NCBI GenBank assembly: GCA_947259575.1
Contig: CAMYMU010000001.1
Span: forward strand, 62,001 to 126,000
DNA length: 64,000 bases
Reading direction: 5' to 3'
Source of the DNA: an uncultured Ectothiorhodospiraceae bacterium
Lineage (GTDB): Bacteria; Pseudomonadota; Gammaproteobacteria; UBA6429; Thiohalophilaceae
Part shown: in pieces, positions 527 through 39,642 of the stretch
Layout: every line of letters starts with the position of its first letter
How positions within the stretch are numbered: the stretch's first letter is position 1
The notes under the pieces: model-generated
Told to the model about the DNA's origin: nothing
Seen by the model: the letters and a program-made list of their open reading frames with translations, nothing else
The model's database searches: none
Position numbers and translations under genes: made by a program

Positions 527-1525
527 TTACAAGCCCGGACAAATCCCATCAATAAGTAAAGAGTTCACTTCATTACTAATAGTTTGTTCTGGCACTCCGT
601 AGAGATGTATCTCAACCCCCGTCACGATAGCTTCTTTGGGTAGTTCAAATGGGTACTCGATTACCGACCAGCCTTCTCCTGCAATTTCAAATTTCTCTCT
701 GAAGATGTTTTTAAATATGGTGCTGGTTTTTTTGCTACCTATCTTATAATGCACTTCGGGCAATATCTGAATCGGGATTTTGCTGGTAGCGACCCGAAAG
801 TTGATCGCGCTTATGTTTTGCCATTCTTGTTTGCTGCTTAAATCCGGTGATTTTACCGAAAAAGTCCAGTGCGGGTCTTTACTCATTTGGTTGCTGGTCT
901 TGGGGAAGCACTCGCTTGAGATCGGCACAAACAGGCTGCCACCTTCAGTGGTTTGATTTAGTTTTGCCGGCCAGCTGGTGTTTACGAAAAATAATCCGGG
1001 ACAGGTTGTTGTGCTTACGGGCTCTTCGCGGGCTTCAATGAAGACGTGGCTACTACCCCAGCCCATCACATCTTCATCTTTATTGTCGAAGTTGAAGCAA
1101 TTGCCCGCAAGTGTGTCATGGACCTTAAAATCGTGGGTCAGAGTTTTAGTTGCAAAGCCTGTATTAATACCTAGAAAAAATTTCTGCGCTGGTATATCTA
1201 TGAGTAATCGATAGTGTCCTGAAGGTAAGTTTTCAACATCTATGTTGTACTGGTTTTTGTTTTTTGCGTCGACCTTAACACTAACTGGGTAGCTTAGTGC
1301 TGAATTGTATTTGTCGTAAACGTGTGCTGGCGGTAACCGGTCCTCGGCTAACAAACCTTCCGTCGTTGTTAAAGTGAACGACACTTTTTGGTACGCCTCA
1401 TTTCTATCCGATAACTGTTTTATAGTTGCAGAGACGGCAGTCTGACTGCATGAGCTGATTGCAGCACAACTTAGCAACAATAAACTAATATGCAGTAGGT
1501 TTCTAATCTTTAGAGTCTTGTTCAT
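527..1525 (-). CDS. putative lipoprotein of unknown function
   Basis: A 332-residue protein with a typical lipoprotein leader: basic MNKTLKIR, a leucine-rich hydrophobic core, and a candidate lipobox ISSC near residue 26, so it is probably lipid-anchored in the envelope. The mature part looks beta-rich with scattered cysteines and no motif I recognise. The chosen ATG at 1525 has GGAT just upstream; an in-frame ATG at 1534 is possible. Either start lies inside the 3' end of the upstream TerC gene (23-32 bp overlap), so the two genes are likely co-transcribed and translationally coupled. No function is offered. Confidence 0.65.
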   Translation of the reverse strand: MNKTLKIRNLLHISLLLLSCAAISSCSQTAVSATIKQLSDRNEAYQKVSFTLTTTEGLLAEDRLPPAHVYDKYNSALSYPVSVKVDAKNKNQYNIDVENLPSGHYRLLIDIPAQKFFLGINTGFATKTLTHDFKVHDTLAGNCFNFDNKDEDVMGWGSSHVFIEAREEPVSTTTCPGLFFVNTSWPAKLNQTTEGGSLFVPISSECFPKTSNQMSKDPHWTFSVKSPDLSSKQEWQNISAINFRVATSKIPIQILPEVHYKIGSKKTSTIFKNIFREKFEIAGEGWSVIEYPFELPKEAIVTGVEIHLYGVPEQTISNEVNSLLIDGICPGL

Positions 1526-2762
1526 GTGATCCATCAGTTTCTGACTTGTCCCGGTTAAAAAAAGCCTTTGACTCTTTACCGTAATGTATAAATTTATGTT
1601 TCACTTTTTTTAGAAGTACGCGTGCCCAGACAAATTCGCTGGCCAGGATAGCAAGTCCTGCAGGGATAACGATGATAGCAGGCCCAGGCGTCACAATAAA
1701 AATAATTCCTATAATTAAAACGCTTACCCCAATCAGGGTAATGATGATTCGTCTAAAGCCAGTGTACGTTATTAAGTATAGTTTACCAAAGTTATCCAGT
1801 ATCGGATAATTTGGAAGTTGACCTCGATCACGATGTAGTAGCGAATAAATAACACCAATTAATAAAATTGAGCTGGTGACAAGCAGAGTAAGTGCCGAAT
1901 CAACGGGGTAATAATTTGCTAGTAACATTTTGAGGCTTAGTAAAATCAGAATAACAATTAATGTGATTTTGATATAGCGTAATTGTTGTAAGGCCGTTGC
2001 AAAGACAAAATAGAGTGCGCGCATGCCAAGTAGTGACAATAAGCTAGCGCTGAGCAGGATAAACAAGTTCGATGATACAGAAAGTGTTGCCGGAATAGAG
2101 TCAGTCGCAAAAATGAGATCTGAATACTCAACTACCAGGATACAAACGAATAGCGGTGTAAATTTTAGCTTGCCAAGTTTTTTTACAATAAACTTACCTT
2201 CTTCGATATTCTCATCGATAGGTAAATGTTTCATCAGGTAATTGGCTAGTCTTGAGCGATGTTGATCCTGTTTGTTGGTTAAGCCAGCAACCAGGCGAAT
2301 TGTCGCAAATATCAAAAATACACCTAGCAGGTAATTCATCCAGGTGATGTTTTCCCAAAGCGTTACGCCCAATGACAGAATTACGCTACGTGAAATGATG
2401 GTTAGTACTAAACCATAAAACAGAACACGGTATTGTAAGTGCACGGGTATTTTTAATAGCTGAAAAGTCAGCACCATCACAAAAAGGTTGTCAAAACTCA
2501 GAACTCGATCCAGGAAATAGACGTTAACGTACTGGGCCAGTGCCTGTTTACCCGTTAATGTGTCATCGGCAAGAGCGGAGAAAATATTGTATTCAAATGA
2601 GAAATAAATGAAAAAGCCAAAGGCGAGTCCGATGCTAATCCAGAAACCGGTCTGCATGAGCGCATCGGCAATGGTTAGGCGTGCGGCTTTATGGCGCGTC
2701 AAACCCAGGTCGATTGCAAATAAGCAGGCTATACCAAGGCCAAGTGCAAACCAGGTGATCAT
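1503..2762 (-). CDS. TerC-family integral membrane protein with C-terminal PGPGW domain
   Basis: A 419-residue polytopic membrane protein. Residues about 1-280 match the TerC/Alx family: an ADDTLTGKQAL loop, then YFLDRVLSFDNLFV and, later, YSDLIFATDSIPA, the two acidic membrane motifs typical of TerC proteins, which are linked to tellurite resistance or divalent (manganese) cation export. Residues about 325-390 form a second unit resembling the PGPGW transmembrane family, with IFIVTPGPAIIVIPAGLAIL followed by ASEFVWA. The C-terminus is basic, then acidic. I infer metal-ion export or membrane homeostasis; the substrate is unknown. It overlaps the downstream lipoprotein gene. Confidence 0.85.
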   Translation of the reverse strand: MITWFALGLGIACLFAIDLGLTRHKAARLTIADALMQTGFWISIGLAFGFFIYFSFEYNIFSALADDTLTGKQALAQYVNVYFLDRVLSFDNLFVMVLTFQLLKIPVHLQYRVLFYGLVLTIISRSVILSLGVTLWENITWMNYLLGVFLIFATIRLVAGLTNKQDQHRSRLANYLMKHLPIDENIEEGKFIVKKLGKLKFTPLFVCILVVEYSDLIFATDSIPATLSVSSNLFILLSASLLSLLGMRALYFVFATALQQLRYIKITLIVILILLSLKMLLANYYPVDSALTLLVTSSILLIGVIYSLLHRDRGQLPNYPILDNFGKLYLITYTGFRRIIITLIGVSVLIIGIIFIVTPGPAIIVIPAGLAILASEFVWARVLLKKVKHKFIHYGKESKAFFNRDKSETDGSHEQDSKD

Positions 2763-2914: not shown

Positions 2915-4276
2915 ATGGCGAAGACAAAAACGGTTTATTACTGCTCCAGTTGTGGTGCTGAGGCTCCCAAGTGGTCGGGACAGTGTTCTGATTGCGGTGA
3001 ATGGAACACCTTGAGTGAAACCACAGCGGTTGTTTCATCCAGGCAACGTGCCGCGAACACTAGTTACACCGGTTCCAATATCACCCAGGTCCAGTCACTA
3101 GATAGCGTTGAACCGGATGACGTACAACGCATAGCAACGAGTATTAGCGAGTTTGACCGGGTTCTAGGTGGTGGGTTGGTTCCTGGCTCGGTGACCCTGA
3201 TTGGTGGTGACCCAGGGATCGGTAAATCAACCTTATTACTACAAGCATTGGTAAACCTCTCTCAACAGCAGACCACCTTGTATGTGACCGGCGAAGAATC
3301 ACTGCAACAGGTGAGCCTACGTGCGAGTCGGCTTGGCTATTCGGAGGCAAAGGTCCCATTGTTAGCCTCGACCCAGATTGAAACGATATTGCAACAGGCT
3401 CAATCCTCGAAGCCCCAGGTGATGGTGATCGATTCTATTCAAACCATGTTTACTGATGAATTGACGGCGGCACCGGGTGCGGTCTCGCAGGTGCGGGAGT
3501 GTGCAGCGCAGCTGGTACGCTTTGCAAAACAAACACAGACAACAGTCTTTCTCGTAGGGCATGTTACCAAAGAAGGTACATTAGCCGGGCCGCGGGTACT
3601 CGAGCACATGGTTGATACCGTTTTATATTTTGAAGGTGAGAGTGGTGAACGTTATCGTCTGATTCGCGCCGTGAAAAATCGTTTTGGTGCAGTAAACGAG
3701 CTAGGCGTTTTTGCCATGACCGATAAAGGTTTGCGTGAAGTCAGTAATCCATCTGCGATTTTTTTATCCAGACATGAGCAGGCCGTTCCTGGTAGTGTAA
3801 TTATGGTGACCCTGGAAGGCAGTCGACCCTTGCTGGTGGAAGTGCAGGCCCTGGTGGATGATTCACAACTAGCGAACCCTCGCAGAGTGACTGTAGGTTT
3901 TGAGCATAATCGTTTAGCCATGTTGCTTGCAGTATTACACCGACATGGTGATATCGTAACTGGTGATCAGGATGTGTTTGCGAATGTTGTGGGTGGTGTT
4001 CGAGTCACGGAGACGGGTGCTGATTTAGCCGTATTATTAGCGATCATGTCCAGCCTGCGTAATAAAACACTTGCAAGGGATATGATCGTCTTTGGAGAAG
4101 TTGGTTTAGCCGGCGAAATCCGGCCTGTGCCGAATGGACAGGAACGTCTAATGGAGGCATTTAAACATGGCTATAAACGTGCACTGATCCCCGCTGCAAA
4201 TGCACCACAGAAGGCTCCGGAAGGGATGGAGATTATTGCTGTAGATAGGATTGCAGAAGCATTAGATGCCTGTTGA
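2915..4276 (+). CDS. radA: DNA repair protein RadA
   Basis: RadA is a RecA-like ATPase that promotes branch migration during recombinational repair. This 453-residue protein has the usual length and order: an N-terminal zinc finger (C10, C13, C24, C27), Walker A GGDPGIGKST near residues 96-105, the RadA-specific KNRFG motif near residue 253, and a C-terminal Lon-like domain (VGGVRVTETGADLAVL onward). The ATG at 2915 gives the standard MAKTKTVYYC N-terminus. It is divergent from the TerC gene and convergent with the PilZ gene, whose end is 3 bp away. Confidence 0.97.
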   Translation: MAKTKTVYYCSSCGAEAPKWSGQCSDCGEWNTLSETTAVVSSRQRAANTSYTGSNITQVQSLDSVEPDDVQRIATSISEFDRVLGGGLVPGSVTLIGGDPGIGKSTLLLQALVNLSQQQTTLYVTGEESLQQVSLRASRLGYSEAKVPLLASTQIETILQQAQSSKPQVMVIDSIQTMFTDELTAAPGAVSQVRECAAQLVRFAKQTQTTVFLVGHVTKEGTLAGPRVLEHMVDTVLYFEGESGERYRLIRAVKNRFGAVNELGVFAMTDKGLREVSNPSAIFLSRHEQAVPGSVIMVTLEGSRPLLVEVQALVDDSQLANPRRVTVGFEHNRLAMLLAVLHRHGDIVTGDQDVFANVVGGVRVTETGADLAVLLAIMSSLRNKTLARDMIVFGEVGLAGEIRPVPNGQERLMEAFKHGYKRALIPAANAPQKAPEGMEIIAVDRIAEALDAC

Positions 4277-4279
4277 GCG

Positions 4280-4666
4280 TCAGTGGTGATTAACATCGAT
4301 CATCTCTGCAATCTCTCTTTCCATCAATTTAGGATCACCAAGATTTAATTCCAGTACTCTGCGCAGATGAGTCATGCTTTCCACGTCAATGTGTTTGCAT
4401 TCAAATCCGATCAGATCATCATGTAAATGGGCCAGCCCAACCTCTAATCGAATACTGACTTCGTTTGTACTAAGTATCAGCTCAAGGTTGAATTCATCAC
4501 CCCGTGCACCACTAAAATTGTCAGGCCGATCGATTAATGTGCCATGCAGGCTCAGGTCAACAACATGACCTGACCACTGTTGTTCACCACTGGGTGTCGA
4601 TAGACGATAGTCAGTATCAAAGTGAATACGTGTGAAGTGACGACGATGTTGGTCTGAATCAGTCAT
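4280..4666 (-). CDS. PilZ domain protein
   Basis: A 128-residue single-domain PilZ protein. The c-di-GMP-binding signature is present: RRHFTR (an RxxxR-type motif) near the N-terminus and DLSLHG (D/NxSxxG) about 27 residues later. Such proteins bind cyclic-di-GMP and control motility, pili or polysaccharide; the target here is unknown. I chose the ATG at 4666, placing the RxxxR motif near the N-terminus as in stand-alone PilZ proteins; an upstream in-frame start would add 22 residues. It lies 74 bp downstream of the FHA gene on the same strand, a possible two-gene unit. Confidence 0.85.
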   Translation of the reverse strand: MTDSDQHRRHFTRIHFDTDYRLSTPSGEQQWSGHVVDLSLHGTLIDRPDNFSGARGDEFNLELILSTNEVSIRLEVGLAHLHDDLIGFECKHIDVESMTHLRRVLELNLGDPKLMEREIAEMIDVNHH

Positions 4667-5498: not shown

Positions 5499-6785
5499 TT
5501 AATCGGTATCTTTCTTGAGCTTTTCTTTCCAATCAGCGTCTATTTTTACTGTTTTCACCGTGTTGTTGGTTGTTTGTACGATTTCCATCGGATAATCGGC
5601 GATCAGCAGGCTGGTTCCCTGATCCGGGATGTGTTCCAGGTATTCGATGATAAGCCCATTAATGGTTTTCGGCCCTTCGGTAGGTAAATCCCACTCCAGA
5701 ATTCGATTTAATTCACGTACGCTGGCGCTACCATCAATAACATAACTTCCATCTTCTTGAATGTGGATATCCTTACTGGTGGCAGAAGGATCGGTGGTGA
5801 ACTCACCAACGATCTCCTCAAGCAAATCTTCAAGCGTAATCAAGCCAAGAATATCGCCATATTCATCCACGATCAGGCCAATACGGCGTTTTTCCCGTTG
5901 GAAGTTAAGCAGCTGTGTATTCAGAGGGGTACCAGCAGGCACAAAGTAGGGCTCACGGATCATGGCCCGCATAGTGTCTTTGTTCGCCGTTTCGGGGTCT
6001 TTGAAAATCTGGATAGCTTTGCGCAAATGCAGAAAACCAATAATCTGATCGATATCCCCTTGGTAAACCGGCAGCTTGGTATGTTGGCTAGTACGCAAGT
6101 CCTTGGAGATCTTTTCCCAGTCATCATCGATATCAATGCCCGTGATCTCATTTCGGGGCACCATAATGTCTTCAACCGTTACCTTCTCCAGATCCAGCAG
6201 GTTAAGCAGCATTTGCTGGTGGCGTTGTGGGATCACTGTCCCCGCTTCATTGACAATTATGCGTAGCTCTTCAGCTGACATATCGTACTGTGAGACCTGG
6301 GCCTTACTAAGTCCTAGTAGACGGAATATACCGTTTGCAGCCAGGTTAGTTAGCCAGACAATCGGATACAGAATTTTAAGCAAAGGCTCTAATACATACG
6401 AAGCAGGTAAGGCAAAGCGCTCTGGGTTGAGAGCAGCCAGCGTCTTGGGGGTAACCTCAGAGAAAATTAGAATCACCACGGTGAGGGAAATCGAGGCAAT
6501 CATGACCCCAGTCTCGCCATAAAAGTGGAAACCGATGACACTGGCAATCGAGGCTGCCAGGATATTAACAAAGTTATTGCCTAGTAAAATTACCCCGATC
6601 AATCGTTCTGGACGGGATAAGAGTCGTTGTGCCCTTTTGGCCCCCTTTCGATTTTGATCCGCAAGATGCTTGAGCCTATAGCGATTCAGGCTCATTAATC
6701 CTGTTTCAGAACCGGAGAAAAAGCCAGAGACAATGATAAGAAAGGCTAGGGTGCCAAATAGAATACTAAACGGGAAATCTTCCAA
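5499..6785 (-). CDS. CNNM/CBS-domain membrane protein, CorB/CorC (YfjD) type
   Basis: A 428-residue protein with a DUF21/CNNM transmembrane domain (about 1-190; GSETGLMSLNRYRLKHLA near the start), two CBS domains (about 200-340; VEDIMVPRNEI, LRKAIQ, then GLIVDEYGDILGLITLEDLL) and a C-terminal CorC/HlyC transporter-associated domain (about 350-425; DGSASVRELNRIL). The family is tied to magnesium/cobalt efflux or resistance. The order corB - ccsA-like - ffh matches yfjD-ypjD-ffh of E. coli, with one extra hydrolase gene here. It ends a minus-strand pair with the CcsA-like gene. Confidence 0.93.
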   Translation of the reverse strand: MEDFPFSILFGTLAFLIIVSGFFSGSETGLMSLNRYRLKHLADQNRKGAKRAQRLLSRPERLIGVILLGNNFVNILAASIASVIGFHFYGETGVMIASISLTVVILIFSEVTPKTLAALNPERFALPASYVLEPLLKILYPIVWLTNLAANGIFRLLGLSKAQVSQYDMSAEELRIIVNEAGTVIPQRHQQMLLNLLDLEKVTVEDIMVPRNEITGIDIDDDWEKISKDLRTSQHTKLPVYQGDIDQIIGFLHLRKAIQIFKDPETANKDTMRAMIREPYFVPAGTPLNTQLLNFQREKRRIGLIVDEYGDILGLITLEDLLEEIVGEFTTDPSATSKDIHIQEDGSYVIDGSASVRELNRILEWDLPTEGPKTINGLIIEYLEHIPDQGTSLLIADYPMEIVQTTNNTVKTVKIDADWKEKLKKDTD

Positions 6786-18324: not shown

Positions 18325-19470
18325 ATGAACAAATTTACAGTTATTTTTGGCACAATTCTTTTAAGTACCACCACCGTTACTTTTGCGGGTATTGAGCAAA
18401 TAAATTCTCCTCAATCTGCTCAAGACACTGCTGTGGAAAGCACGGCGGCTGTTGCCCCGAATAACCTTGTCGTAAAACAGGGTGATATGTTGTGGGATAT
18501 CGCAAGTCAAATGCGCCCCAGTGAAAAATTTTCTGTTTATCAGGTCATGATTGCGCTTTTGGAGACGAATCCAGCTGCATTTATCAATGGCAATCCAAAT
18601 AATTTAATTGCCGGTGCCAGCCTGACTCTGGCCCCTTCTGTTTTGGCCACGATTGATCGTAATCAGGCGTTCCAACGTTTCCAACAGGCAGTGGCTAGTG
18701 CGAAACAGAGTCAACCTTCACCAAGACCAGCGGATCAGGCGAAGCCAGTTGAACAGGCACAACAAATACCACAGACAAAGCCAACAAGTGAGTCTGCCAC
18801 GGTGAGCCAGGCAGATGCGCTCGCGAACATAAAAAAAAGAATTCAAAATGAATTGCAAGCTGAGGCAACGTCTATTAAACAAACGCCAATTGCCGGCCTG
18901 TATGAAGTGACCGTTCCTCCCAGAGTATTTTATATCTCAGAGAATGGTCAGTATGTACTGACTGGCGATATGATTGACCTCAAAAATAGTATCAACTTGA
19001 GTCAAGGGGTACGTGATAATGCTCGGGTTGCGTCGATTGAGAATATCGGTGAAGAAAACATGATCGTATTCTCACCTGCGAAAGTTAAGCACACCGTCAC
19101 CATTTTTACTGATATCGATTGTGGCTACTGTCGTAAGTTGCATAATGAGATGGCGAGTTATAACAAACTGGGCATCAAAGTACGTTATTTAGCTTATCCG
19201 CGTGCCGGGATTGGTTCACCGTCTTACAACAAGGCAGTCACGGTCTGGTGTTCGGATGATAAGAAACAGGCAATGACAGATTCTAAAAATGGTAAGGCTT
19301 TGTCACCAAAGAACTGTGATAACCCTGTTGCAAAACAAATGGCATTAGGCAAGGGCCTTGGTGTGAACGGTACTCCTGCGATTGTGCTTGCAAACGGCCA
19401 GATTTATCCGGGTTATGCACCTGCAGATAAACTACTGCAGGTTATTGAACAGGTAAACGCAACTAAATAA
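18325..19470 (+). CDS. dsbC: DsbC-type disulfide isomerase with N-terminal FimV/LysM-like domain
   Basis: A 381-residue exported protein with three parts. A signal peptide (about 1-21) is followed by a FimV N-terminal/LysM-like module at about 46-105 (NNLVVKQGDMLWDIASQMRP, then NPAAFINGNPNNLIAGASL), which in FimV/TspA proteins is a peptidoglycan-binding segment. A Pro/Gln-rich linker (about 125-160) leads to a complete DsbC: dimerisation domain (about 165-250) and thioredoxin fold with C266-G-Y-C269 and a cis-Pro loop GVNGTPAIVL. DsbC, about 216 residues when mature in E. coli, shuffles wrong disulfides in the periplasm. The xerD-dsbC order supports orthology; the added domain suggests cell-wall tethering. 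No stop or frameshift separates the parts. Confidence 0.92.
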   Translation: MNKFTVIFGTILLSTTTVTFAGIEQINSPQSAQDTAVESTAAVAPNNLVVKQGDMLWDIASQMRPSEKFSVYQVMIALLETNPAAFINGNPNNLIAGASLTLAPSVLATIDRNQAFQRFQQAVASAKQSQPSPRPADQAKPVEQAQQIPQTKPTSESATVSQADALANIKKRIQNELQAEATSIKQTPIAGLYEVTVPPRVFYISENGQYVLTGDMIDLKNSINLSQGVRDNARVASIENIGEENMIVFSPAKVKHTVTIFTDIDCGYCRKLHNEMASYNKLGIKVRYLAYPRAGIGSPSYNKAVTVWCSDDKKQAMTDSKNGKALSPKNCDNPVAKQMALGKGLGVNGTPAIVLANGQIYPGYAPADKLLQVIEQVNATK

Positions 19471-19492: not shown

Positions 19493-22400
19493 CTAATCAA
19501 TAGCAATCTCAATACACTTTGACAGGGCGGTGAAGATCACAAAGGTCTTGATTGATCGTCCTGGGTAGCGTTCGGGGAAAAGTAGGGCGATACCCTCTTT
19601 ATATAATGAAAGCTGTGAGCGAAACTGGTTCGCTAGCTTTTCAAGATCTTCATTTCTATCGATTAGGTGAGTTTTGTAATCGATAACAAATATTTCGTTT
19701 TCTGTAATCACCAGTCGATCGATAATACCATTTACGATGGTCTCTCCCTTATTGAAATATACCGGGACTTCACTATAGGCTGCCTGATAACGATCATCAT
19801 TAAAATACTCAGGGAATTGCTTGATAGTTTGTTCTGCCTGTTGCCAGCATTGAACCAGGTAATCCTGTTGTCCATCGAGCTGATGTTTTCGGCAGAATTG
19901 TTTTAATGACAGATTAGGTTGCTTGCTCAACAACTCGATCATTTGATGGATAAGAATGCCGCGTTCGCGGTTTCCAATTGAAGTAAAAATTGTTTCTGCT
20001 GGTAGCCTTGCAGTAGAGCGTGGTTCATTTGGTAGCTTACTTGGTGTGATATCTACCTGCCGTGCCACTAACTGAATGGATTGCTGTAAGCGCGGTTCAA
20101 ATTTTAGTTCTGGCATTGCTGGTGCCGTTTTAAGTATAGGTTTGTTTGTATCGCCTTTATGCATTTCCAGGAGGTGTTCCTGAGCTAATTTATCGTTGGC
20201 AATATCATAGCGGTGACGGATTTGCTCATACCAGCCTGCAGATTTTCCTGAACCCGAAATATAAAGGTACTGTTGAGCACGTGTAACGGCTACATAAAGA
20301 AGATTTGCCTCTTCTTGCGATTCCTTTTTATTGTTTTCATCCAGCAGCATTTCACAATGTTTATTCGGGTAAGGCGAAGAAGGCGAGATTAAAAACTCCT
20401 GCGGATAACTTCCCCCCTGGTTCTCATGACTACTAGCAGCAGAATCGTTATTTTGGTTTAGCGGCCAGTCGATTAAGACTGAGGCACCGCCGCGATTTCG
20501 TTTAGTCGTAGTAGCATCGAGTAGCAATACGACAGGAGATTCAAGACCTTTTGATTCATGAATCGTTAGTATTCTGACACGATTACCATCACTGTTACTG
20601 GCTGGTTGATCAGGGGCCTCTTGATCCTGTTGTTTTAATAAGCGTAGCCAGGCTAGAAAACGCGTCAGGCTAGGGTAACGCCCACTATCATTTTCTAGTG
20701 CTAACTCGATGAAACGAGTCAGGTTTGCCTGAACCCTGGATTGCAGGTGGTCCGGGTAGTTGGCTTTATAACGTTCAAGGACGTTAGCTTCGCTATAAAT
20801 TCTGTCCAACAGATCATGTACGGGTAGAGTGTCGGTACATTTCATCCAGTTTTGTAAATGAAAGGCGGCTCTTGCTAATGGTGTATTGTCGGTCGGAGAA
20901 GTTTTGGCCGAAGTGGGGTACAGATCAAGAATTGTTTCGAACCAGTTTGGGTGATCGACTAGTGAATATAAGTCTTGCTCTGTTGCAGAAAATAATGGCG
21001 AACGTAACACACCCGCTAACGCGTGGTTATTAACTGGTGTGATTAACCACTGCAATAGATTCACCATATCTCTTATTTCAAGACTATCGAGTAAGGTGCC
21101 ACGTTCAGTACCCATGTAAGGGATATGTGCTTCACGTAGGGCACGTTCATAATCTGCGGCATGGGTGCGATTACGCAACAGGATCATAATGTCACCAAAG
21201 TCAACGTAGCGAGCCTGATCACCTTCGTTAATGGTTAGCTTGCTGTCAATCACATCAGATATTTTTCCTGCCGCAATCTGTGCCTCAAGCAGATGCTCCG
21301 AGTCAGTTGTCGTGACTGGGTTTTTAAGTGGGTTGCGAAATTCAAGCGGTTCTTTATTGTTTTTTGAATCCTTGAGGGATAAGGGTAGTAACTCAACAGT
21401 ACCATTTAGTCTTGTCTTGACAGTAGAGTGCGTCTGGAAATCATTTAGTGGTATTGTTTCGTTATCTTCAAATAGATGATTGACAAAGTCGATAATGGCC
21501 GGTGACGATCGGTAGGAACGAGATAGATATTGTTTATCTGCATCCAGGTTTTTTTCAATCCAGAGACTTGCTGCATCAAACAGTTTTGGTTCTGCACGAC
21601 GGAAACGGTAAATAGACTGTTTGCTATCACCAACAAACAGCACACTTCGTTGTCGATCCTGTTTCGCAGCAGCTAGTTCTCTTAGCAATGGTAAGACAAG
21701 TTGCCACTGAGTTTGATTAGTGTCCTGAAATTCATCAATTAATAAATGATCGATGCGCTGATCAATTTTGTACTGGATCCAATCAGCATGATCGGATGTG
21801 TTCAACAAACGGAAACACTGCCATTCGAGATCTGAAAAGTCTAAATGACGGTGATTGTATTTTATTTTTTGATATTTCTCGACGAAGGTATTGCCAGCAT
21901 GCAACCAGGCACGAGTCAGTGACAAGGTTTCGATTGCATGGATGTCTTGTCTAACGGCAATCAGTTTTTCACATTGAGACTCATGTAACTGTAGAAATAT
22001 CTGGCAACCGTCGGCGCCTAAACTTTTTAGTAGTGCCTTTGATTCCTTTCGTGCGCGAGCAGAGTGGCTTTTCGTAAAAAAAGCGCTCCAGACTTTTTCA
22101 AGCCGTACTGAACTGTCATTTTGATCGTTCAAGGCCTCTTCAGTAGATTGTCCCGATGTTTTGTGTTCTGCTGTTTTATGTTTTGCCAGTAATGCTATAA
22201 ATTGAGTCAGTTCATTCCTGTTTTGTTCATCTGAAAAATAAGTCTCAATCGGATCCCTAATCGGATTCTCATCAGAACTTATGCCAAGTTTTTCTGCGAG
22301 CTGGTTGCAGTGTTGCTCAATGTTGAAATCGGGTTGGCTCGTTAACGCCCACCATTCACTGCGCGCGGCGTTGAATTTATTGAGCACAGCGCGGGTCTCG

Positions 22401-22939
22401 GTGGTGCCGAGTCGGGTCAGTAATACGTCAAAGTGTTCAGCGATGGGCAATGAGGGGTTTCGGGTCAACTCATTTTCGAGATTATTCCAGGCTTCGTCGA
22501 TTAAATAGGCTGTCCGCTCAACTAGCTCAAAGCCGGGCGGGATATCCGCTTCCATCGGAAAGCGGCGTAGTAAATCCTGGCAAAAAGCGTGAAAGGTTGT
22601 TGTTCGAACACCCAAGTTGGCGTGCAGTAAGGATTCATATAGATTTCTAGCACAGCGGCGGTGTTGATCATTCGCGCTGAGGTTAAATGTGCTCTCAAGC
22701 AGGTTATTGAGTTCATCATCGGGCGCTATTGCTAATTCGTAGACTCGTTCTAAAAGACGTTCCTGCATTTCTGATGCAGCTTTTCTGGTGAAAGTTATCG
22801 CCAGAATGGAGGCAGGCTCAGCACCCTGGATCAACAGGCGTACCATATGGCTAACCAGGTGATAAGTCTTGCCACTCCCTGCCGAGGCGTGAACGGAATG
22901 GTACTGGTTCGCACTATTTTTTGACGGATTGGTCGACAT
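19493..22939 (-). CDS. UvrD/RecB-type helicase-nuclease (AddA-like)
   Basis: An 1148-residue UvrD-superfamily helicase with a C-terminal nuclease. Walker A is VHASAGSGKTYHLV near residue 17; further helicase motifs are HLLIDEFQDTNQTQW (motif II, about 400), FVGDSKQSIYRFRRAEP (motif III), LTIHESKGLESPVVLLLDA and LLYVAVTRAQQYLYISG (motifs V-VI). The nuclease site reads IVNGIIDRL...FVIDYKTHL near residues 1085-1110, the RecB/AddA PD-(D/E)XK pattern. With the upstream AddB-like gene it should process double-strand breaks for RecA loading. The start ATG at 22939 abuts the candidate regulatory RNA; the 421-bp gap from AddB is unusually long for this pair. Confidence 0.92.
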   Translation of the reverse strand: MSTNPSKNSANQYHSVHASAGSGKTYHLVSHMVRLLIQGAEPASILAITFTRKAASEMQERLLERVYELAIAPDDELNNLLESTFNLSANDQHRRCARNLYESLLHANLGVRTTTFHAFCQDLLRRFPMEADIPPGFELVERTAYLIDEAWNNLENELTRNPSLPIAEHFDVLLTRLGTTETRAVLNKFNAARSEWWALTSQPDFNIEQHCNQLAEKLGISSDENPIRDPIETYFSDEQNRNELTQFIALLAKHKTAEHKTSGQSTEEALNDQNDSSVRLEKVWSAFFTKSHSARARKESKALLKSLGADGCQIFLQLHESQCEKLIAVRQDIHAIETLSLTRAWLHAGNTFVEKYQKIKYNHRHLDFSDLEWQCFRLLNTSDHADWIQYKIDQRIDHLLIDEFQDTNQTQWQLVLPLLRELAAAKQDRQRSVLFVGDSKQSIYRFRRAEPKLFDAASLWIEKNLDADKQYLSRSYRSSPAIIDFVNHLFEDNETIPLNDFQTHSTVKTRLNGTVELLPLSLKDSKNNKEPLEFRNPLKNPVTTTDSEHLLEAQIAAGKISDVIDSKLTINEGDQARYVDFGDIMILLRNRTHAADYERALREAHIPYMGTERGTLLDSLEIRDMVNLLQWLITPVNNHALAGVLRSPLFSATEQDLYSLVDHPNWFETILDLYPTSAKTSPTDNTPLARAAFHLQNWMKCTDTLPVHDLLDRIYSEANVLERYKANYPDHLQSRVQANLTRFIELALENDSGRYPSLTRFLAWLRLLKQQDQEAPDQPASNSDGNRVRILTIHESKGLESPVVLLLDATTTKRNRGGASVLIDWPLNQNNDSAASSHENQGGSYPQEFLISPSSPYPNKHCEMLLDENNKKESQEEANLLYVAVTRAQQYLYISGSGKSAGWYEQIRHRYDIANDKLAQEHLLEMHKGDTNKPILKTAPAMPELKFEPRLQQSIQLVARQVDITPSKLPNEPRSTARLPAETIFTSIGNRERGILIHQMIELLSKQPNLSLKQFCRKHQLDGQQDYLVQCWQQAEQTIKQFPEYFNDDRYQAAYSEVPVYFNKGETIVNGIIDRLVITENEIFVIDYKTHLIDRNEDLEKLANQFRSQLSLYKEGIALLFPERYPGRSIKTFVIFTALSKCIEIAID

Positions 22940-22978
22940 GGCTATAGCTTAACAGTTCTTTTTCCATCAGAAACATTC

Positions 22979-22996
22979 TGTAACCAAATGTCTGAC
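22979..22996 (+). promoter_or_regulatory. weak GacA/UvrY-box-like sequence
   Basis: TGTAACCAAATGTCTGAC keeps the left half (TGTAA) of the TGTAAG-N6-CTTACA element that activates RsmY/Z/CsrB genes, but the right half is poor. It lies about 50 bp before the predicted RNA start. Low confidence on its own. Confidence 0.2.
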
Positions 22997-23022
22997 CTTT
23001 TCGCGCAGACTCTTGTTATGAT
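22992..23022 (+). promoter_or_regulatory. promoter of the CsrB/RsmZ-like RNA
   Basis: An extended -10 element TGT-TATGAT (23014-23022; five of six bases of TATAAT) is preceded by CTGACC (22992-22997) as a partial -35, spaced 19 bp. The predicted start is near 23029-23030, just before the first GGA-loop hairpin. Confidence 0.5.
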
Positions 23023-23104
23023 TACCGCGCTCAAAGGTTGGTCGATATCAACACACAACGGAGCGTGTGTTGGCATCGAATAATTTAATGGGTTCGTTAC
23101 CATT

Positions 23105-23153
23105 AATTCTTTAACTGAATTCTTCACTGAATTCTGCACCGAATTCTTCACAG
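23105..23153. repeat. four tandem 12-13 bp units inside the RNA candidate
   Basis: Imperfect copies of AATTCTTCACTG start at 23105, 23118, 23130 and 23142. They carry no GGA, so they separate the first GGA hairpin from the GGA-dense 3' part of the RNA. Confidence 0.8.
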
Positions 23154-23295
23154 GGAAACGTGAATCCAGGCGGGATTGCCTGATAAGGAAGACCTAAGGA
23201 ACACAAGCAGCGGCAGGATGCTGAAATGGACGTTTAAGAGCCAAAATATCTGCAGGGAATAAAAGCGGGCGGGAGGGCCTGAAAGGTGATTAAGG

Positions 23296-23322
23296 AAGCG
23301 GCTGATTAGTCGCTTTTTTTTT
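23296..23322 (+). terminator. intrinsic terminator of the CsrB/RsmZ-like RNA
   Basis: AAGCGGCT (23296-23303), GATT loop, AGTCGCTT (23308-23315): an 8-bp stem with one G-T pair, followed by an uninterrupted T-run to 23322. It is oriented for plus-strand transcription although no plus-strand protein gene lies upstream. Confidence 0.85.
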
Positions 23323-23360
23323 GCGTCATATTTTTTAGACATCCGACCCTGTTTTAGCAT

Positions 23361-26282
23361 TTAGTCCTGCCAGGTGCCGCAGCGGCACAAGCTGATCATG
23401 TCGCAGTGATTGCAGACTTTACTGTTTTCCCAGGCAGGTAATTCTTGCCCTTGTTCCAGGGAGCTGACCATTTCCTGTAAGCGATCTAGCACATTGCCTG
23501 CAAGAACAGACAATTCATCAGTGTTTAGTGGAAACATGGCCTGAAAATTTTTATCTTTGCCTAGCGCGAGGTAGCCGGCTGAATTGATAGGCATCTTGTC
23601 TGGCTCGGTTAGCAATGCATAAAAAGGGAGTTGAACCTGTTCGCCGGCGAGCACATCTTTTTTGCTGGGAAGTTGTCCCGTTTTATAATCAATGACTTCA
23701 TAATGCGCATCCTCACAATCAATACGATCGAGGCGTCCCTTAAGGGTAATACCTGTTGGTAGAGTACGTTCCAGTTTTTCTTCGGTGTGTATTATGCGCG
23801 CGTTCTGTTTGCTTGATATGTGCCAATCAATATAGGTAGGAATGACATTCAGCCATTGGTGATACCAGCCTTTGTGAATGTAATTCTCCTTCATATCATA
23901 TTCAAACACGGCAGCGGCAATCTCTTGCATCATGTCGATGGCTGCCTGACGCTGTTCAAAAGTTATTGATTCCTGGAATGGACCGGGTAAGTAGCTGACA
24001 TCAGAGTGGAAGGCCTGTAGGCACAGATGGACGCGCTCACCATATTCTCTTTGAGATAAGGCTAATTGTATTTCTTCCGGTGGTCGTAGTTTTAAACACT
24101 GTGCGGCAAAAAACTGGTACGGGCAATTCATCAGCTGTTGATAACTGCTCGCAGAAAAAGTATGCGGTACCAGTTTGTCTGTTAAGACTGGTCTGGCTTG
24201 AGCTTGTTTTTTAGGTAACGATGTTGTGTCACAGCGGATGACCTGTGTTGATTGTTGCACTATGCGTTGTTCAAGTTCTGTTGCGCGAAGCGTTTCTTCA
24301 GGTTTATTTCCATAGGCGATTTGGTGAAACTGTTGTATTGCGGCTAACCACGGGCTGACAATGACAGGCTCACCATCTTGTTCGCTGCGGTAGGTTAATA
24401 ATATGGACTCAGAGCTATATAATAGATCAGTAAACTGTCGCAGCCGTTGCTCGCGAAAGTGATCATGGCCAGGTAAGCCAAGTTGACTGCGAACCTGATT
24501 ATTAAAAAACTGACTAACCGGTGCCGTACCTGGCATGGCATCTTGTTCAAGCCCTGCGATAATGAGCCCATCGAATTGCTGGAAGCCAGTTTGTGAAAGG
24601 TTAAAAAGGCGAACGGTATTATCAGTACTTTGTGGTTGAAAGTATCGACTTTCGAAGTTTCGACCCAGCCAGGCGCGAAAGTGAGTCCAGTTAGCGACTA
24701 AAGGTTGAGTGTTTGCAGCCAGGACCATTTCATCCAGTAATTGTAAAATTATCTGCCCGGCATCATCGTCTTGCAAGTTGGCTGACATACCCAATTGTTC
24801 CAAGGTAGTGAGTAAGGCAGTGATCAACTCACTAATCTCTATTTTTTTTCTGTTCAGGTCCCGCAAAGGCTGGGTGGCTTGCTGAATATCATCGAGTAGT
24901 TTTAAAAGCTGCTCGGGTGAAAATTGCCAGATATCCTGTAGCCGTTCTTTACGACTAGTTATGGCATGTTGGTACCGTGACAGATTATTGGTGACCTGCT
25001 CGTTTTGGATAATGTCGTGCTCAAGCCGGTAGACCAGTTTCTTTAATAATTGCTGATCTTGATCAGGAAATAACAGCCCTGATTTCAATAGATCGAGAAG
25101 TGCATCCTTATCGAAATCTTCTTCTATGCAGAGTAGTAATGATTCAATACTGGCGGCGGCACGTGTTGTTGCGAGAGTCCAGCCAGCCGCGTCCTGTAGT
25201 TGGATATCTGCTCGTTCAAGTAAGGCGCGCAGTCGCCTGGCAAGCAGTCGATTCTCTGTAACGATTGCAATCTGGCGTTTGCCATCCAGTAACCAACGGC
25301 GTATTTGTGTATCGACAGCGTGTATTTGTTGTTCTGCATTATGCGCATCATAGATCTCGATACGATCTTTGAGTGGACTGTGCGAATGTTGCTTCGCAAA
25401 TTGTTCAGCCCGCTCTGTTATCTGCGGCTGACGTGAAAAGATAGTTGTAATCGCGCGTTGGTATTCATCGTTGTTGGCTTGTGATGAAACTGAGACGTCT
25501 AATTGTTTTTGCAAACGATACAAACGATCTTCATTACGACAGTCACCCTCTGGGCTATGCGGTGTACCCTGGATCCACAAATGGACACGCTCATGTTGTA
25601 ATAGTTGTGTAAGCCATATCTGCTGAGTTGAGTAGTCAGGTTCAAAACCAATCAAATGCACCTGGTGGTTTTTAAAGTCAAAGTTAAGACTATTATTGAG
25701 TGCCAGGATGTGTGCGCTGACTGAATCACAATATCCCTGTGCCTGTAATTGTTCATGCCAGGCATACCAGAGTTGATGTATCAGCTCAGCTTCTTGTTGT
25801 AATCCCGAAAAATGATGTTGACCCGTTTTATACCATTCACTCAGTTGTTGGTTGAAAGTATCAAGATCACTGGCTATCTCTATCTGGTTAAGCGTTAATT
25901 CGTCGAACAATTGCAAAAGGTTATCAGCCAACGACCATGGGTTGGCCTGTTTTAGCAATCCTGGTGCAGCCAGGAGTGCTTCGACAAGAATTAATAAACG
26001 AATTTGATCATCACAGATATTCAAATCATCGGGAATGAAATCTTGTAACCACTGATCAACTGTATAGAAGTAAGGCCCAAGCAGTGCCTGTTGTTGCTTT
26101 TGCGTTGCCGCATCTAATAGAGCGCCTCGAAGCGCGGGGGTCAGGCGTGAATCTTTGGTGATGATATGTACCCGGGTCAGATCCGGAGACTCGATCGTTG
26201 TCGACAGAATCTGTTCGGCAATTGTCGCCAGGGCAGATTGCCCATGTGCTAGAAAATGTATGTTTTGTTTGGCCGCAGACAT
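23361..26282 (-). CDS. AddB-like PD-(D/E)XK nuclease, recombination/repair
   Basis: A 973-residue protein of the AddB-like 'probable DNA repair protein' group. The N-terminal two-thirds is a degenerate helicase-like scaffold; the C-terminal nuclease shows LKGRLDRIDCEDAHYEVIDYKTG (about 850-875) with the QLPFYALL helix. Cysteines for an Fe-S staple are present: C in MNCPYQFFAAQCLKL (about 720) and CNHCDMISLC at the very end. Paired with the AddA-like protein it would resect broken DNA ends. I start at the ATG at 26282; an in-frame TTG two codons upstream is unlikely. The next gene in the transcript direction is AddA, beyond the RNA locus. Confidence 0.9.
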   Translation of the reverse strand: MSAAKQNIHFLAHGQSALATIAEQILSTTIESPDLTRVHIITKDSRLTPALRGALLDAATQKQQQALLGPYFYTVDQWLQDFIPDDLNICDDQIRLLILVEALLAAPGLLKQANPWSLADNLLQLFDELTLNQIEIASDLDTFNQQLSEWYKTGQHHFSGLQQEAELIHQLWYAWHEQLQAQGYCDSVSAHILALNNSLNFDFKNHQVHLIGFEPDYSTQQIWLTQLLQHERVHLWIQGTPHSPEGDCRNEDRLYRLQKQLDVSVSSQANNDEYQRAITTIFSRQPQITERAEQFAKQHSHSPLKDRIEIYDAHNAEQQIHAVDTQIRRWLLDGKRQIAIVTENRLLARRLRALLERADIQLQDAAGWTLATTRAAASIESLLLCIEEDFDKDALLDLLKSGLLFPDQDQQLLKKLVYRLEHDIIQNEQVTNNLSRYQHAITSRKERLQDIWQFSPEQLLKLLDDIQQATQPLRDLNRKKIEISELITALLTTLEQLGMSANLQDDDAGQIILQLLDEMVLAANTQPLVANWTHFRAWLGRNFESRYFQPQSTDNTVRLFNLSQTGFQQFDGLIIAGLEQDAMPGTAPVSQFFNNQVRSQLGLPGHDHFREQRLRQFTDLLYSSESILLTYRSEQDGEPVIVSPWLAAIQQFHQIAYGNKPEETLRATELEQRIVQQSTQVIRCDTTSLPKKQAQARPVLTDKLVPHTFSASSYQQLMNCPYQFFAAQCLKLRPPEEIQLALSQREYGERVHLCLQAFHSDVSYLPGPFQESITFEQRQAAIDMMQEIAAAVFEYDMKENYIHKGWYHQWLNVIPTYIDWHISSKQNARIIHTEEKLERTLPTGITLKGRLDRIDCEDAHYEVIDYKTGQLPSKKDVLAGEQVQLPFYALLTEPDKMPINSAGYLALGKDKNFQAMFPLNTDELSVLAGNVLDRLQEMVSSLEQGQELPAWENSKVCNHCDMISLCRCGTWQD

Positions 26283-26364
26283 GGCCAATGAGTATATCAG
26301 TAATTAAATAACTTCCTGCACCGATTCGCTCATTTGCTGACCTGGTCAGCCAGGAGCGGGCGGT

Positions 26365-26688
26365 TTACCTTTCCAGGTATTGCAGCTTATCTTTGACACC
26401 ATCCCATTCTTCGGCATCATCCGGGGCAGGTTTCATTTCGGTAATGACTGGCCACTCTTTCGCCAGTTCTTCGTTGAGCGCAGTGTACTGCTCCATATCG
26501 GCGGGTACATCGTCCTCGGCAAAAATTGCATTTGCTGGGCATTCGGGTTCACACAGGGTGCAGTCGATGCATTCTTCAGGATCGATGACTAGAAAATTGG
26601 GACCTTCGTGAAAACAGTCTACCGGGCAAACTTCAACACAGTCGGTATATTTACACTTAATGCAATTGTCGGTGACGACGTAAGTCAT
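26365..26688 (-). CDS. fdxA: 7Fe ferredoxin FdxA
   Basis: A 107-residue ferredoxin binding one 3Fe-4S and one 4Fe-4S cluster. Cysteines C9, C12, C17 and C21 in the first motif ([20 protein letters not shown]) and the second motif [12 protein letters not shown] match Azotobacter/Pseudomonas FdxA. The acidic C-terminus is standard. The ATG at 26688 has GGGAGAA just upstream; an upstream in-frame start would add 19 unrelated residues. fdxA beside mutS is the Pseudomonas order. It donates low-potential electrons; the partner is unknown. Confidence 0.96.
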
Positions 26689-26799
26689 GTGGTTCTCCCA
26701 AATTTCAACTATATAATACTGGGCGACTTGTAGGCCCTGATACAACGGCGCTTATGGTAATCGTTTAGCCATTTTTTTTCGAGTGATTTTGTATATCAG

Positions 26800-29451
26800 T
26801 TACTTATCCAGCTTTGATTTTATTTTATAAAGCAGACTATGGGCCTGTTTTGGGGTGATTTCATCCAGGTCCAGTTGGGCCAGCTCTGTCAGGATAGCCT
26901 GGACCATTTTCTGATCAGTATCCCAATCTTTAGTCTCAGGCATTTGTTGAGTATCAAGCGCATCCAGCAAGTCTGGCTGTTTTGCCCGGGCCGATGCGTG
27001 TGTGCCCATTTTATTGCTTTCCAGTCGCTGCAGTTGTTGCTGTGCTTTGGTGATGACATGCGCTGGTACACCTGCCAGGGCCGCGACCTGTAGACCATAG
27101 CTATCATTCACCGCGCCAGGTTTGACTTGATGTTGAAAGACAATACCTTGTCCTGCTGGCCCATTAGGTTTACCCATTTCTATTGCATCAAAATGCACGT
27201 TGCGAATACTGGGCTGTTCATCAGCCAACAGCGTTAACTCAAAGTAGTGAGTGGCAAACAGGGTAAAAGCATGGAGGTTGGTAGCCAGTTCAGTAGCACA
27301 GGCCCAGGCCAGCGACAGGCCGTCAAAGGTACTGGTGCCACGGCCAATTTCATCTAACAGTACGAGACTATTGCGGGTGGCGTTCTGGAGTATATTGGCC
27401 GTCTCGGTCATCTCGACCATAAAGGTTGAACGACCACGGCTGATATCATCGGATGCGCCGATGCGGGTGAAGATACGATCGATGGGACCGATAGTGGCTG
27501 AGGTCGCAGGCACATAACTTCCTGTGTAGGCAAGCAGGACAATCAGGGCTGTTTGTCGCATGTATGTGGATTTACCACCCATATTGGGACCGGTCACGAT
27601 CAGGATACGTTGTTCTTGATCTAAATTGAGATCATTCGGCGTGAAGGCCTCATTGATGCTCTGTTCGATAACAATGTGGCGACCTTCACTAATATCAATA
27701 ATGCTTTCTTCGACTAACTCAGGGGGACGAAGATTTAAGGTCTCAGTGCGTTCAGCAAGGTTGGCCAGAGCATCTAATTCTGCAAGTGCGCTGCTGCAAA
27801 CTTGTAAGGGTTGCAGGTGTTGGTTTAATTCTTCGATGAGTTCGGCATAGAGTGCCTTTTCTTTTGCCAGGGCGCGTTCATTGGCACTGAGCACCTTATC
27901 TTCCAGCTCTTTTAATTCAGGCGTGATGTAGCGCTCGGTGGCTTTCAATGTCTGACGGCGTTGGTAGTTGTCAGGCACGTTGTCTGACTGGGTGCGTGAT
28001 ACCTCAATGTAATAGCCGTGCACACGATTAAAACCAATCTTTAAGGTAGCTATCTGGCTACGTTCCCGTTCCTGTAGTTCCATCTGTTCAAGAATGTCAC
28101 CGACATTTTCACGGATACTGCGCAACTCATCCAGTTCCTGGTCAAAACCTGTCGCAATCACACCGCCATCTCGGATGAGTACTGGGGGCTCATCGATAAT
28201 GGCTTGCTCGAGCCGGGCGGTTAAATCAGGAAAAGGCTGTAGGGCATGTTGCAAGGATTGCATGGCGTCGTGTTTGAAAGCAGCAAGTTCGGAATTTAAC
28301 TCGGGCAATTGGGCCAGCGCATAGGCAAGGCGGGTCAGGTCTCGTGGACGTGCGCTACGCAATGCCACACGCGCAAGAATACGTTCGATATCACCGATGC
28401 CACGTAGCCGCGTTTGTATTTGTTCATAACCATAATCGGTCAATAAAGTTTGTATGCAGTTTTGTCTTGCCGCCACAATAGTTCGATCTCTTAACGGACG
28501 TTTTAACCAGCGACGTAACATACGACTGCCCATAGCAGTGACGGTATGATCCATGACGCCGCAGAGACTATGTTTGGGATCGATCTGACCGCTTGTTTCT
28601 ATTTCGAGATTACGCTGAGTTGCGGCATCGAGCACAACAAACTGGTTTTGTTGCTCGGTTTGTAAAAGCTGAATGTGAGGAGTGAGCCCCCGTTGAGTTT
28701 CATGTACATAACTTAACAATGCACCTGCCGCGCGTTTTGCTAGTGACAGGTCATCGATACCGAGATTTGCGATATCCTCTATATTAAATTGGCTACAGAG
28801 TGTTTTGCTGGAGGCTCTTTTTTTAAAGTAATCCTCAGTTACACTGGTCCAGCGACCATAAGCTTTCAGGTCGGGGGCAAAATCCAATGTCTCAGAATAA
28901 ATCACTTCCGCTGGCTTTAGTCTCTCCAGTTCAGCAAACAGGGCTTCACTATCATCGACCTCGATGACACTGAAACGACCACTAGCAATATCGAGTATTG
29001 CAATGCCGTATTGGGTTTCTTCGGGTTGGCCATCTTCAGTGAAAATACTCAGCAGGACATTTTCATTTTTGTTCTCTAACAGGGCTTCATCAGTCACGGT
29101 ACCTGGCGTGACGATGCGTACCACTTTACGTTCAACCGGACCTTTGGATGTGGCCGGGTCACCTATTTGTTCACAAATAGCAATCGATTCACCAAGTTTG
29201 AGTAATCTGGCCAGGTAAGAATCCACGGCATGGTAGGGCACCCCGGCCATTGGAATAGGTTCACCTGCGGTTTGGCCACGATGGGTCAGGGTGATGTTCA
29301 GCAGCTTGGCTGCGTACCTTGCATCGTCAAAGAACAACTCATAAAAGTCGCCCATGCGATAGAATAATAATGTTGAGGGGTAATCAGCCTTGATGCCCAA
29401 ATACTGCTGCATCATCGGGGTGTGCTTGGTTGGCTGATCGATCTGCGTCAT
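26800..29451 (-). CDS. mutS: DNA mismatch repair protein MutS
   Basis: MutS recognises base mismatches and recruits MutL. The 883-residue form begins [21 protein letters not shown], with the mismatch-binding Phe-X-Glu motif in the next segment ([15 protein letters not shown]). Later come the connector, lever and clamp domains, Walker [14 protein letters not shown] near residue 620, [12 protein letters not shown] and the C-terminal ATHYFELT region. I prefer the ATG at 29451 to the TTG at 29493 because it yields the usual N-terminus, although no strong Shine-Dalgarno precedes either. It ends about 110 bp before fdxA. Confidence 0.97.
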
Positions 29452-29570
29452 TACGCGCAGTGTATCGAAAAGCGGGGTTACAATGTAGCGCAAAGCTTTA
29501 AAAAAAAGAAAAACTTGCGTTCTGACAACAGGTTTGATAACTAGTTATACAGGTGTGTGTGGAGATTAAT

Positions 29571-39456: not shown

Positions 39457-39642
39457 ATGTTGATTTTGACGCGACGCGTGGGTGAGACGCTCATGATAGG
39501 AGACGATGTAACGGTTACCGTATTAGGTGTAAAGGGTAATCAAGTCCGTATTGGCGTCAATGCCCCTAAAGATGTCTCGGTACATCGTGAAGAAATCTAC
39601 GAACGCATCAAGAGCGAACAAAAAGAAGTCAAGCAAGGCTAA
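39457..39642 (+). CDS. csrA: carbon storage regulator CsrA/RsmA
   Basis: A 61-residue RNA-binding dimer controlling translation by binding GGA motifs in mRNA leaders, typically repressing glycogen synthesis and biofilm and activating motility. The sequence has the canonical [18 protein letters not shown] start, [19 protein letters not shown] core and the R44-type [10 protein letters not shown] helix needed for RNA binding. AGGAG lies 9 bp before the ATG. The window also holds a candidate CsrA-titrating RNA (23.0-23.3 kb), a glycogen cluster directly downstream, and flagellar genes, the processes CsrA classically governs. Confidence 0.98.

Follow-up and report, generated by a model that had tools for sequence, protein, structure and literature searches.

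A predicted RsmZ-type RNA with conserved GGA loops between addA and addB in a gammaproteobacterial family, probably an orthologue of RsmZ

The described RNAs closest to the one reported here are RsmZ/PrrB of Pseudomonas (RF00166) and CsrB/RsmB of the enterobacteria (RF00018). RsmZ presents GGA in the loops of its hairpins, ends in an intrinsic terminator, and lies beside fdxA, an arrangement already known in Pseudomonas (PMC4353343, PMC9788540), while CsrB displays many GGA in both hairpin loops and single strands. Two further RNAs invite comparison: TwoAYGGAY (RF01731), a member of the CsrB clan with two GGA loops and a proposed CsrA-binding function (PMC4333381), and CsrR2 of Alcanivorax dieselolei, a predicted CsrA-related RNA next to a ferredoxin gene, for which its authors noted the likeness to fdxA-rsmZ (PMC9788540). 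On the protein side, the SELEX consensus of CsrA is given as RUACARGGAUGU, and residues L4 and R44 are named as critical (PMC7652899). No addAB or fdxA flank is named in the prediction table of PMC5568370, which covers eight organisms. The top-ranked part of the open-access literature on RsmZ/CsrB (fdxA, rpoS, synteny, Chromatiales) contained no title describing the RNA group treated below, and no open-access paper was found that brings together addA, addB, CsrA, and a small RNA. What is new here is an RNA group unlisted in Rfam and its probable orthology with RsmZ.

The locus lies within a 64,000-nt stretch of contig CAMYMU010000001.1 (the window), from an uncultured Ectothiorhodospiraceae bacterium placed by GTDB in the Thiohalophilaceae. 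Gene order, from high to low coordinates, was mutS (26800-29493, minus strand; TIGR01070, 1108 bits), fdxA (26365-26745, minus; NF045490, 166 bits), addB (23361-26288, minus), a gap of 421 nt (22940-23360), addA (19493-22939, minus), and a dsbC-like gene on the plus strand. The mutS and fdxA scores were above cut-off; those of addA (TIGR02784, 567 bits, cut-off 861) and addB (TIGR02786, 191 bits, cut-off 487) were clear but below it. The last two names come from NCBIfam models bearing alphaproteobacterial and Gram-positive labels, together with the pairing of the genes; among the matches listed, the closest named AddA was that of an Ectothiorhodospiraceae MAG (55%). The DsbC-like disulfide isomerase (18325-19470) begins with a stretch resembling the FimV core (TIGR03505, 59 bits), an unusual-looking fusion. 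Apart from the neighbouring genes, the gap held overlapping frames of only 20 to 70 aa and no convincing protein-coding frame, and the part conserved in relatives varied there from 157 to 192 nt in steps that are not multiples of three, which argues against a conserved reading frame. An RNA gene of ~294 nt was instead predicted on the plus strand (~23029-23322), divergent from addA and convergent with addB, from its promoter, its terminator, its fold, and a conserved core. The gap very probably encodes a small RNA that soaks up CsrA, a global regulator, and we consider it highly likely that this is a CsrA-sequestering RNA of the RsmZ type that occupies the rsmZ position and is probably orthologous to rsmZ. 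A CsrB/RsmZ-type RNA between the AddA-like and AddB-like genes had been proposed in a first-pass annotation of the sequence, and conserved GGA loops, covariation, and synteny now lend that proposal support.

The same annotation had expected RNA family models to miss the gene, as they did. No Rfam family gave a gathering match at the window RNA or at the RNA in 20 chosen related loci. The RsmZ model did not reach its gathering score of 44 bits in the window and, under stricter filters, found nothing at E ≤ 0.001 genome-wide; the CsrB model gave 14 bits at the window RNA against a gathering score of 71. CsrB was nonetheless the top-scoring listed family of the CsrA-binding clan at this site, and its sole match at E ≤ 1 in the genome was this RNA (E 0.15). 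TwoAYGGAY, which has another architecture, likewise lacked a gathering match at the window RNA. Given the Rfam misses, the structure, and the synteny, the window RNA falls outside the listed families by score, yet is RsmZ-like in build and place. It differs from RsmZ in length (~290 nt versus 133 model positions), in lying between addA and addB rather than between rpoS and fdxA, and in that no GacA box was found at it. From CsrB it differs in having 10 GGA motifs, against 22 (PMC7652899). CsrR2, set beside the window RNA by description only, overlaps fdx in antisense and has an Hpt-domain gene as its other neighbor (PMC9788540).

The number of GGA motifs does not by itself distinguish the RNA. 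The motifs reported earlier were all in place, nine of them at 23154, 23173, 23187, 23198, 23216, 23228, 23256, 23272, and 23294 and a tenth at 23060. Nine in the 174-nt core were, however, equalled by 112 of 1,000 dinucleotide shuffles (mean 6.4), so the count is not usable as evidence and was discarded as such. Set against the window as a whole the count fared better, since a density of nine or more per 174 nt was reached at just two plus-strand positions and nowhere on the minus strand. The presentation of GGA in loops when the core was folded as a single sequence was also within chance, with 124 of 500 shuffles scoring as high. Folding of 23029-23322 gave a z score of -2.7, with none of 200 shuffles as low, and folding of a slightly different stretch, 23045-23325, gave -1.9, with 8 of 200 as low. 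A functionless, GGA-rich intergenic stretch with chance hairpins would fit a motif count that shuffling so readily equals, but hardly conservation and covariation over 33 sequences and a presence in 35 of the family's 40 genomes, and we give this explanation almost no credence. As far as sequence can speak, it is conservation, and not GGA number, that settles the case for a functional RNA.

A blastn search with the gap returned matches in 16 of 58 genomes, the window's own counted. Fifteen of these sequences formed alignment A3, a bare terminator match from outside the family (L022) being omitted, and a covariance model, R1, was built from these 15 relatives. R1 located the RNA at 44 to 157 bits in 35 of the 40 genomes of the window's family, 15 of which had contributed to the model itself. 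Three of the 40 gave no match, and two (G005 and G011) gave weak, chance-like ones of 24 to 25 bits that resembled, by eye, coding sequence plus a terminator and were excluded from the 35. In G009, which belongs to the three without a match, the dsbC-fdxA interval consisted of coding sequence that included, by eye, a thioredoxin-like protein, and R1 run unfiltered gave nothing above 11 bits. A supposed second copy on contig 33 (23 bits) was rejected as the end of a cytochrome-like gene, judged by eye, with its terminator, and a match on contig 36 of G010 was dismissed on the same grounds.

A larger alignment, A5, comprised 33 sequences, leaving out L138 and L139 because of their large insert. 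The structure applied to it, drawn on the window sequence, has six helices and 28 pairs in all. Its paired cells amounted to 92.1%, against 86.8% when shuffled and 25 to 37% when partners were slid by one to three columns; mismatches other than A-C made up 55 of 912 cells. Changes on both sides were seen in 18 of the 28 pairs, and none of 500 shuffles reached any of five covariation measures, a control that kinship can inflate. RNAalifold recovered all six helices from A3 (27 pairs) and, from A5 alone, the hairpins H1 and H5 and the terminator (16 pairs). Conservation was concentrated in the GGA loops and their stems, and the stretches between them varied.

Read along the plus strand, the predicted RNA opens with a hairpin at 23049-23072 whose 8-bp stem holds GGA in its loop and is as first described; it has no counterpart in the aligned sequences of the same genus. 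At 23114-23151 stand three head-to-tail copies of a repeat (ACTGAATTCTTCAC, 12-nt spacing), in a 5' part that is longer than that of relatives and resembles a recent expansion. H1 (23149-23162; CAC-AGGGAAAC-GTG) matches the CsrA SELEX core ACARGGA, which 29 of 35 family members keep exactly and 34 of 35 keep as ACANGGA, and its GGA was in the loop in all 33 aligned sequences. H2 (23167-23182; CAGGC-GGGATT-GCCTG), the second stem found as described, held GGA in its loop in 31 of 33; four of its five pairs showed changes on both sides, 79.9% of its cells were paired, and the outermost pair was open in 17 of 33. AAGGA motifs follow between the hairpins at 23187-23200, with GGA at 23187 and 23198. 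For H3 (23207-23253; CGGC-AGGAT-GCTG inside a GCAG/CTGC helix), the GGA loop assigned by the first-pass annotation to a hairpin at 23208-23223 stood (31 of 33), but conservation favored a pairing that differs slightly: 23211-23214 with 23220-23223, leaving the loop AGGAT, within a helix in which GCAG at 23207-23210 pairs with CTGC at 23250-23253. Both-side changes affected three of four pairs in H3 and in the enclosing helix alike, with 84.6% and 92.4% of cells paired, respectively. H5 (23266-23281; CGGGC-GGGAGG-GCCTG) had GGA in the loop in 33 of 33 and 97.0% of its cells paired. The earlier tally of three GGA-loop hairpins was thus incomplete, having overlooked H1 and H5, which are among the best conserved. 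H2 and H3 were the least well kept, in our judgement in part through misplacement by MAFFT in some rows. The intrinsic terminator (23297-23322), a stem at 23297-23314 followed by a run of nine T, showed both-side changes in all seven pairs and pairing in 98.7% of cells. Loss of the GGA loops or of the terminator in relatives, which had been named in advance as counting against such an RNA, was not seen.

A promoter and a terminator had also been said to bracket the RNA. The extended -10 element is there (TGTTATGAT, 23014-23022, plus strand; predicted start ~23029) and the terminator is plain in the fold, but simple scans were blank for both, a sigma-70 scan finding no two-hexamer promoter and a terminator scan failing to pick up the stem. 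Of 34 family members, 21 carried TGnTAnnnT in the 170 nt preceding the core; 500 shuffles averaged 9.0 and none exceeded 17 (kinship ignored). The element preceded the core by 135 nt in the window; among the 20 other members that have it, the distance was 118 nt in L112 and 39 to 90 nt in the remaining 19.

The RNA was assigned to the plus strand because G-U cells outnumber A-C cells (42 versus 17) when the alignment is read as plus, because each core carries 6 to 9 GGA versus 0 to 1 TCC, and because of the direction of the terminator. These same observations bear on whether the gap might house a cis-acting element of the addB-addA unit, that is, a leader, attenuator, or intergenic mRNA structure on the minus strand. 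Its position between two co-oriented genes would suit such an element, and the minus strand of the gap folds well too (z -1.9, 1 of 100 shuffles as low), but a U-run 3' of the stem exists on the plus strand only, as do the GGA richness and the G-U excess, and the RNA persists by fdxA in three loci where no addB intervenes; we therefore hold a cis element to be very improbable. A plus-strand small RNA that acts mainly by base-pairing with mRNA (for example, with the ends of addB or fdxA), its GGA loops being secondary, or else one with both functions, would have a parallel in CsrR2, which is antisense to its neighboring ferredoxin gene and for which a dual role, antisense pairing plus a CsrA-related one, was proposed (PMC9788540). 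Conservation centred on the GGA loops and their stems, with variable stretches between, speaks against such a mode, as does the end of the predicted RNA before addB and 3 kb from fdxA, and we judge it improbable for the window RNA.

The reading as an RsmZ-type RNA gains further from genomic position. In 30 family loci inspected with flanks of ~1.5 kb, some ended by contig edges, the RNA had addA or addB as its neighbor in 25, fdxA in three, dsbC in one (L131), and a contig end in one (L011). In the three fdxA cases (L120, L130, and L132) it directly adjoined that gene, convergent with it and in the orientation of rsmZ, a closer likeness to Pseudomonas than the mere proximity of fdxA that had first been pointed out. 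Judged by the neighbors in these 30 loci, the mutS-fdxA side is the constant neighbor and addAB is optional. A role for addAB as a necessary functional partner was rejected because these three loci keep the RNA without an intervening addB and because, among 60 fdxA loci surveyed more widely, only two of the eight with addA or addB have the RNA. As the RNA stays beside fdxA where addAB is absent between them, its place inside addAB appears positional and not functional.

In presumed Pseudomonadaceae, RF00166 scored above cut-off in 15 of 20 genomes. The 20 loci derived from it comprised nine with the order rpoS(+)-rsmZ(+)-fdxA(-)-mutS(-), three with rpoS only, and eight with neither, several of them extra copies. 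The syntenic order RNA(+)-fdxA(-)-mutS(-) is that of the window with addB inserted between the RNA and fdxA. R1, although built without sequences from presumed Pseudomonadaceae, gave matches with E < 0.01 that coincided with RsmZ in 13 of the 20 RF00166 loci, including 7 of the 9 syntenic ones; its scores were modest (15 to 26 bits), 7 of the 20 were missed, and the homology ran one way, RF00166 not matching back.

The 60 fdxA loci were drawn from the highest-ranked entries of a class-wide fdxA search, about one per family. A scan of them for GGA-rich stretches before a terminator yielded five in which strand and side were as expected and zero for each of the other three combinations. R1 at E < 0.01 also gave five matches, all 3' of fdxA and convergent. 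Four loci were common to both (L203, L238, L245, and L257); L215, where the match is 6.6 kb from fdxA, came from the scan alone, and L259, with 22 GGA in its gap, from R1 alone. At the thresholds used, 54 of the 60 had no match by either method and 55 had none by R1. An RsmZ-like sponge could have arisen independently at the fdxA locus, an explanation that concerns descent and whose probability overlaps that of our favored one. Sequence similarity to RsmZ is weak, GGA-loop RNAs come to look alike through function, and 55 of the 60 sampled loci lack the RNA, all of which would agree with convergence. The side of fdxA on which the RNA lies and its orientation to that gene are, however, shared by the window's family, the RF00166-bearing family, and five further families, and common descent with losses seems a likelier history than repeated gain at one site; we think an independent origin unlikely, and orthology with RsmZ the better account.

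Named addA loci numbered at least 80, mostly from alpha- and betaproteobacteria. Of the 80 listed, 70 allowed the addB-addA gap to be measured; two of the values (L054 and L059) are wrongly long. Those two aside, nine or more antisense GGA in the gap were found, among the matches listed, only in L027 and L028, which were also the only R1 matches among the 30 of the 80 that were searched with this model. The gap of L027, a Chromatiales MAG (6015-6499), holds a strikingly long array of 19 antisense GGA, and that of L028, an Acidiferrobacterales MAG (4256-4617), holds nine. Class-wide, R1 matched 25 genomes out of 369; four belong to the window's own family. The 21 other loci lay by addA or addB in nine cases, by fdxA in one, by dsbC in two, and elsewhere in nine. 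Five of these last hold only one to three GGA and are probably chance terminators. L160 and L165 (two genomes of family f78) and L155, with 11, 9, and 8 GGA, respectively, lie away from fdxA, addAB, and dsbC and may be additional CsrA-binding RNAs at separate sites.

The presumed target is encoded in the window by csrA (39457-39642, plus strand; 61 aa; PF02599, 93 bits), the product of which has both L4 and R44. We infer transcription of the RNA, CsrA binding, and sequestration along the following lines. A free-standing RNA of the Csr/Rsm class would be transcribed from the extended -10 element, divergently from addA, starting near 23029, and would stop at the intrinsic terminator short of the 3' end of addB. 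Its short hairpins would display the GGA loops, each predicted to engage one face of a CsrA dimer, and these loops together with the AGGA sites between hairpins could bind several dimers, lifting CsrA from its target mRNAs and thereby releasing them. Expression may be controlled by UvrY, by CRP-type regulators, or by both.

As to the first of these regulators, the best UvrY match (52% identity) lies one gene from uvrC, itself named by likeness to the E. coli protein, and was taken as the UvrY/GacA orthologue. The GacA box TGTAAGN6CTTACA was not enriched upstream of the RNA in the family (mean best match 7.85 of 12, shuffles 7.68, sd 0.11); one locus, L124, matched at 11 of 12 positions. A looser dyad, TGTRA-N8-TYACA, was raised (z 3.9) and was present in 5 of 15 genera (shuffle maximum 4), in part because palindromes with a gap of six overlap it. 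The latter, TGTRA-N6-TYACA, which we take to agree with the CRP consensus, occurred upstream in 9 of 15 genera versus a mean of 1.28 and a maximum of 4 in 100 dinucleotide shuffles, and at least 9 of its 10 positions matched in 18 of 34 sequences (z 12); it was found post hoc, TGTAAC having been noticed by eye and ten gap lengths tried, and L011, in which upstream sequence is absent, was left out of the dyad counts. In ten sequences from three genera the center of the dyad (at least 8 of 10) lay 43 to 44 bp before the extended -10 element, or about -59 from the predicted start. The dyad is not claimed for the window, because a match of 9 was reached neither there nor in its two genus mates with upstream sequence. 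A CRP orthologue is encoded in the window's genome (67% identity), with CRP-like matches in 39 of the 40 family genomes, and CRP control of CsrB/CsrC has been reported for Salmonella and Yersinia (PMC7591399, PMC3523269). The dyad suggests an input to Csr other than the usual Gac pathway, and in much of the family the transcriptional input likely differs from that of RsmZ.

A wider scenario can be offered tentatively, as one we lean somewhat against. RsmZ may be an old gammaproteobacterial RNA of a mutS-fdxA-(addB)-RNA-(addA)-dsbC island, of which the rsmZ of pseudomonads would be a remnant that lacks addAB. Control of the RNA in the window's family would have passed largely to a CRP-type activator, the dyad standing at a fixed spacing from the extended -10 element in three genera, and away from a recognizable GacA box. 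With the RNA activated by CRP in this way, carbon status would directly set CsrA activity. Whatever its control, the RNA would supply a candidate CsrA antagonist for one gammaproteobacterial family and scattered others in which Rfam has none, and the alignment could seed a new Rfam family. The positional tie between these RNAs and RsmZ makes it possible to test how old RsmZ is and how it descended, and where family models fail, the places to look are 3' of fdxA and the addA-addB gap. Two of the related loci carry another structured RNA nearby: a tmRNA gene lies ~0.5 kb from the RNA in L110 (G018; 651-1011, plus strand), and in L108 (G028) a TwoAYGGAY motif (RF01731, 46 bits; 1873-2011, minus strand) lies ~200 nt past the terminator of the RNA, on the opposite strand.
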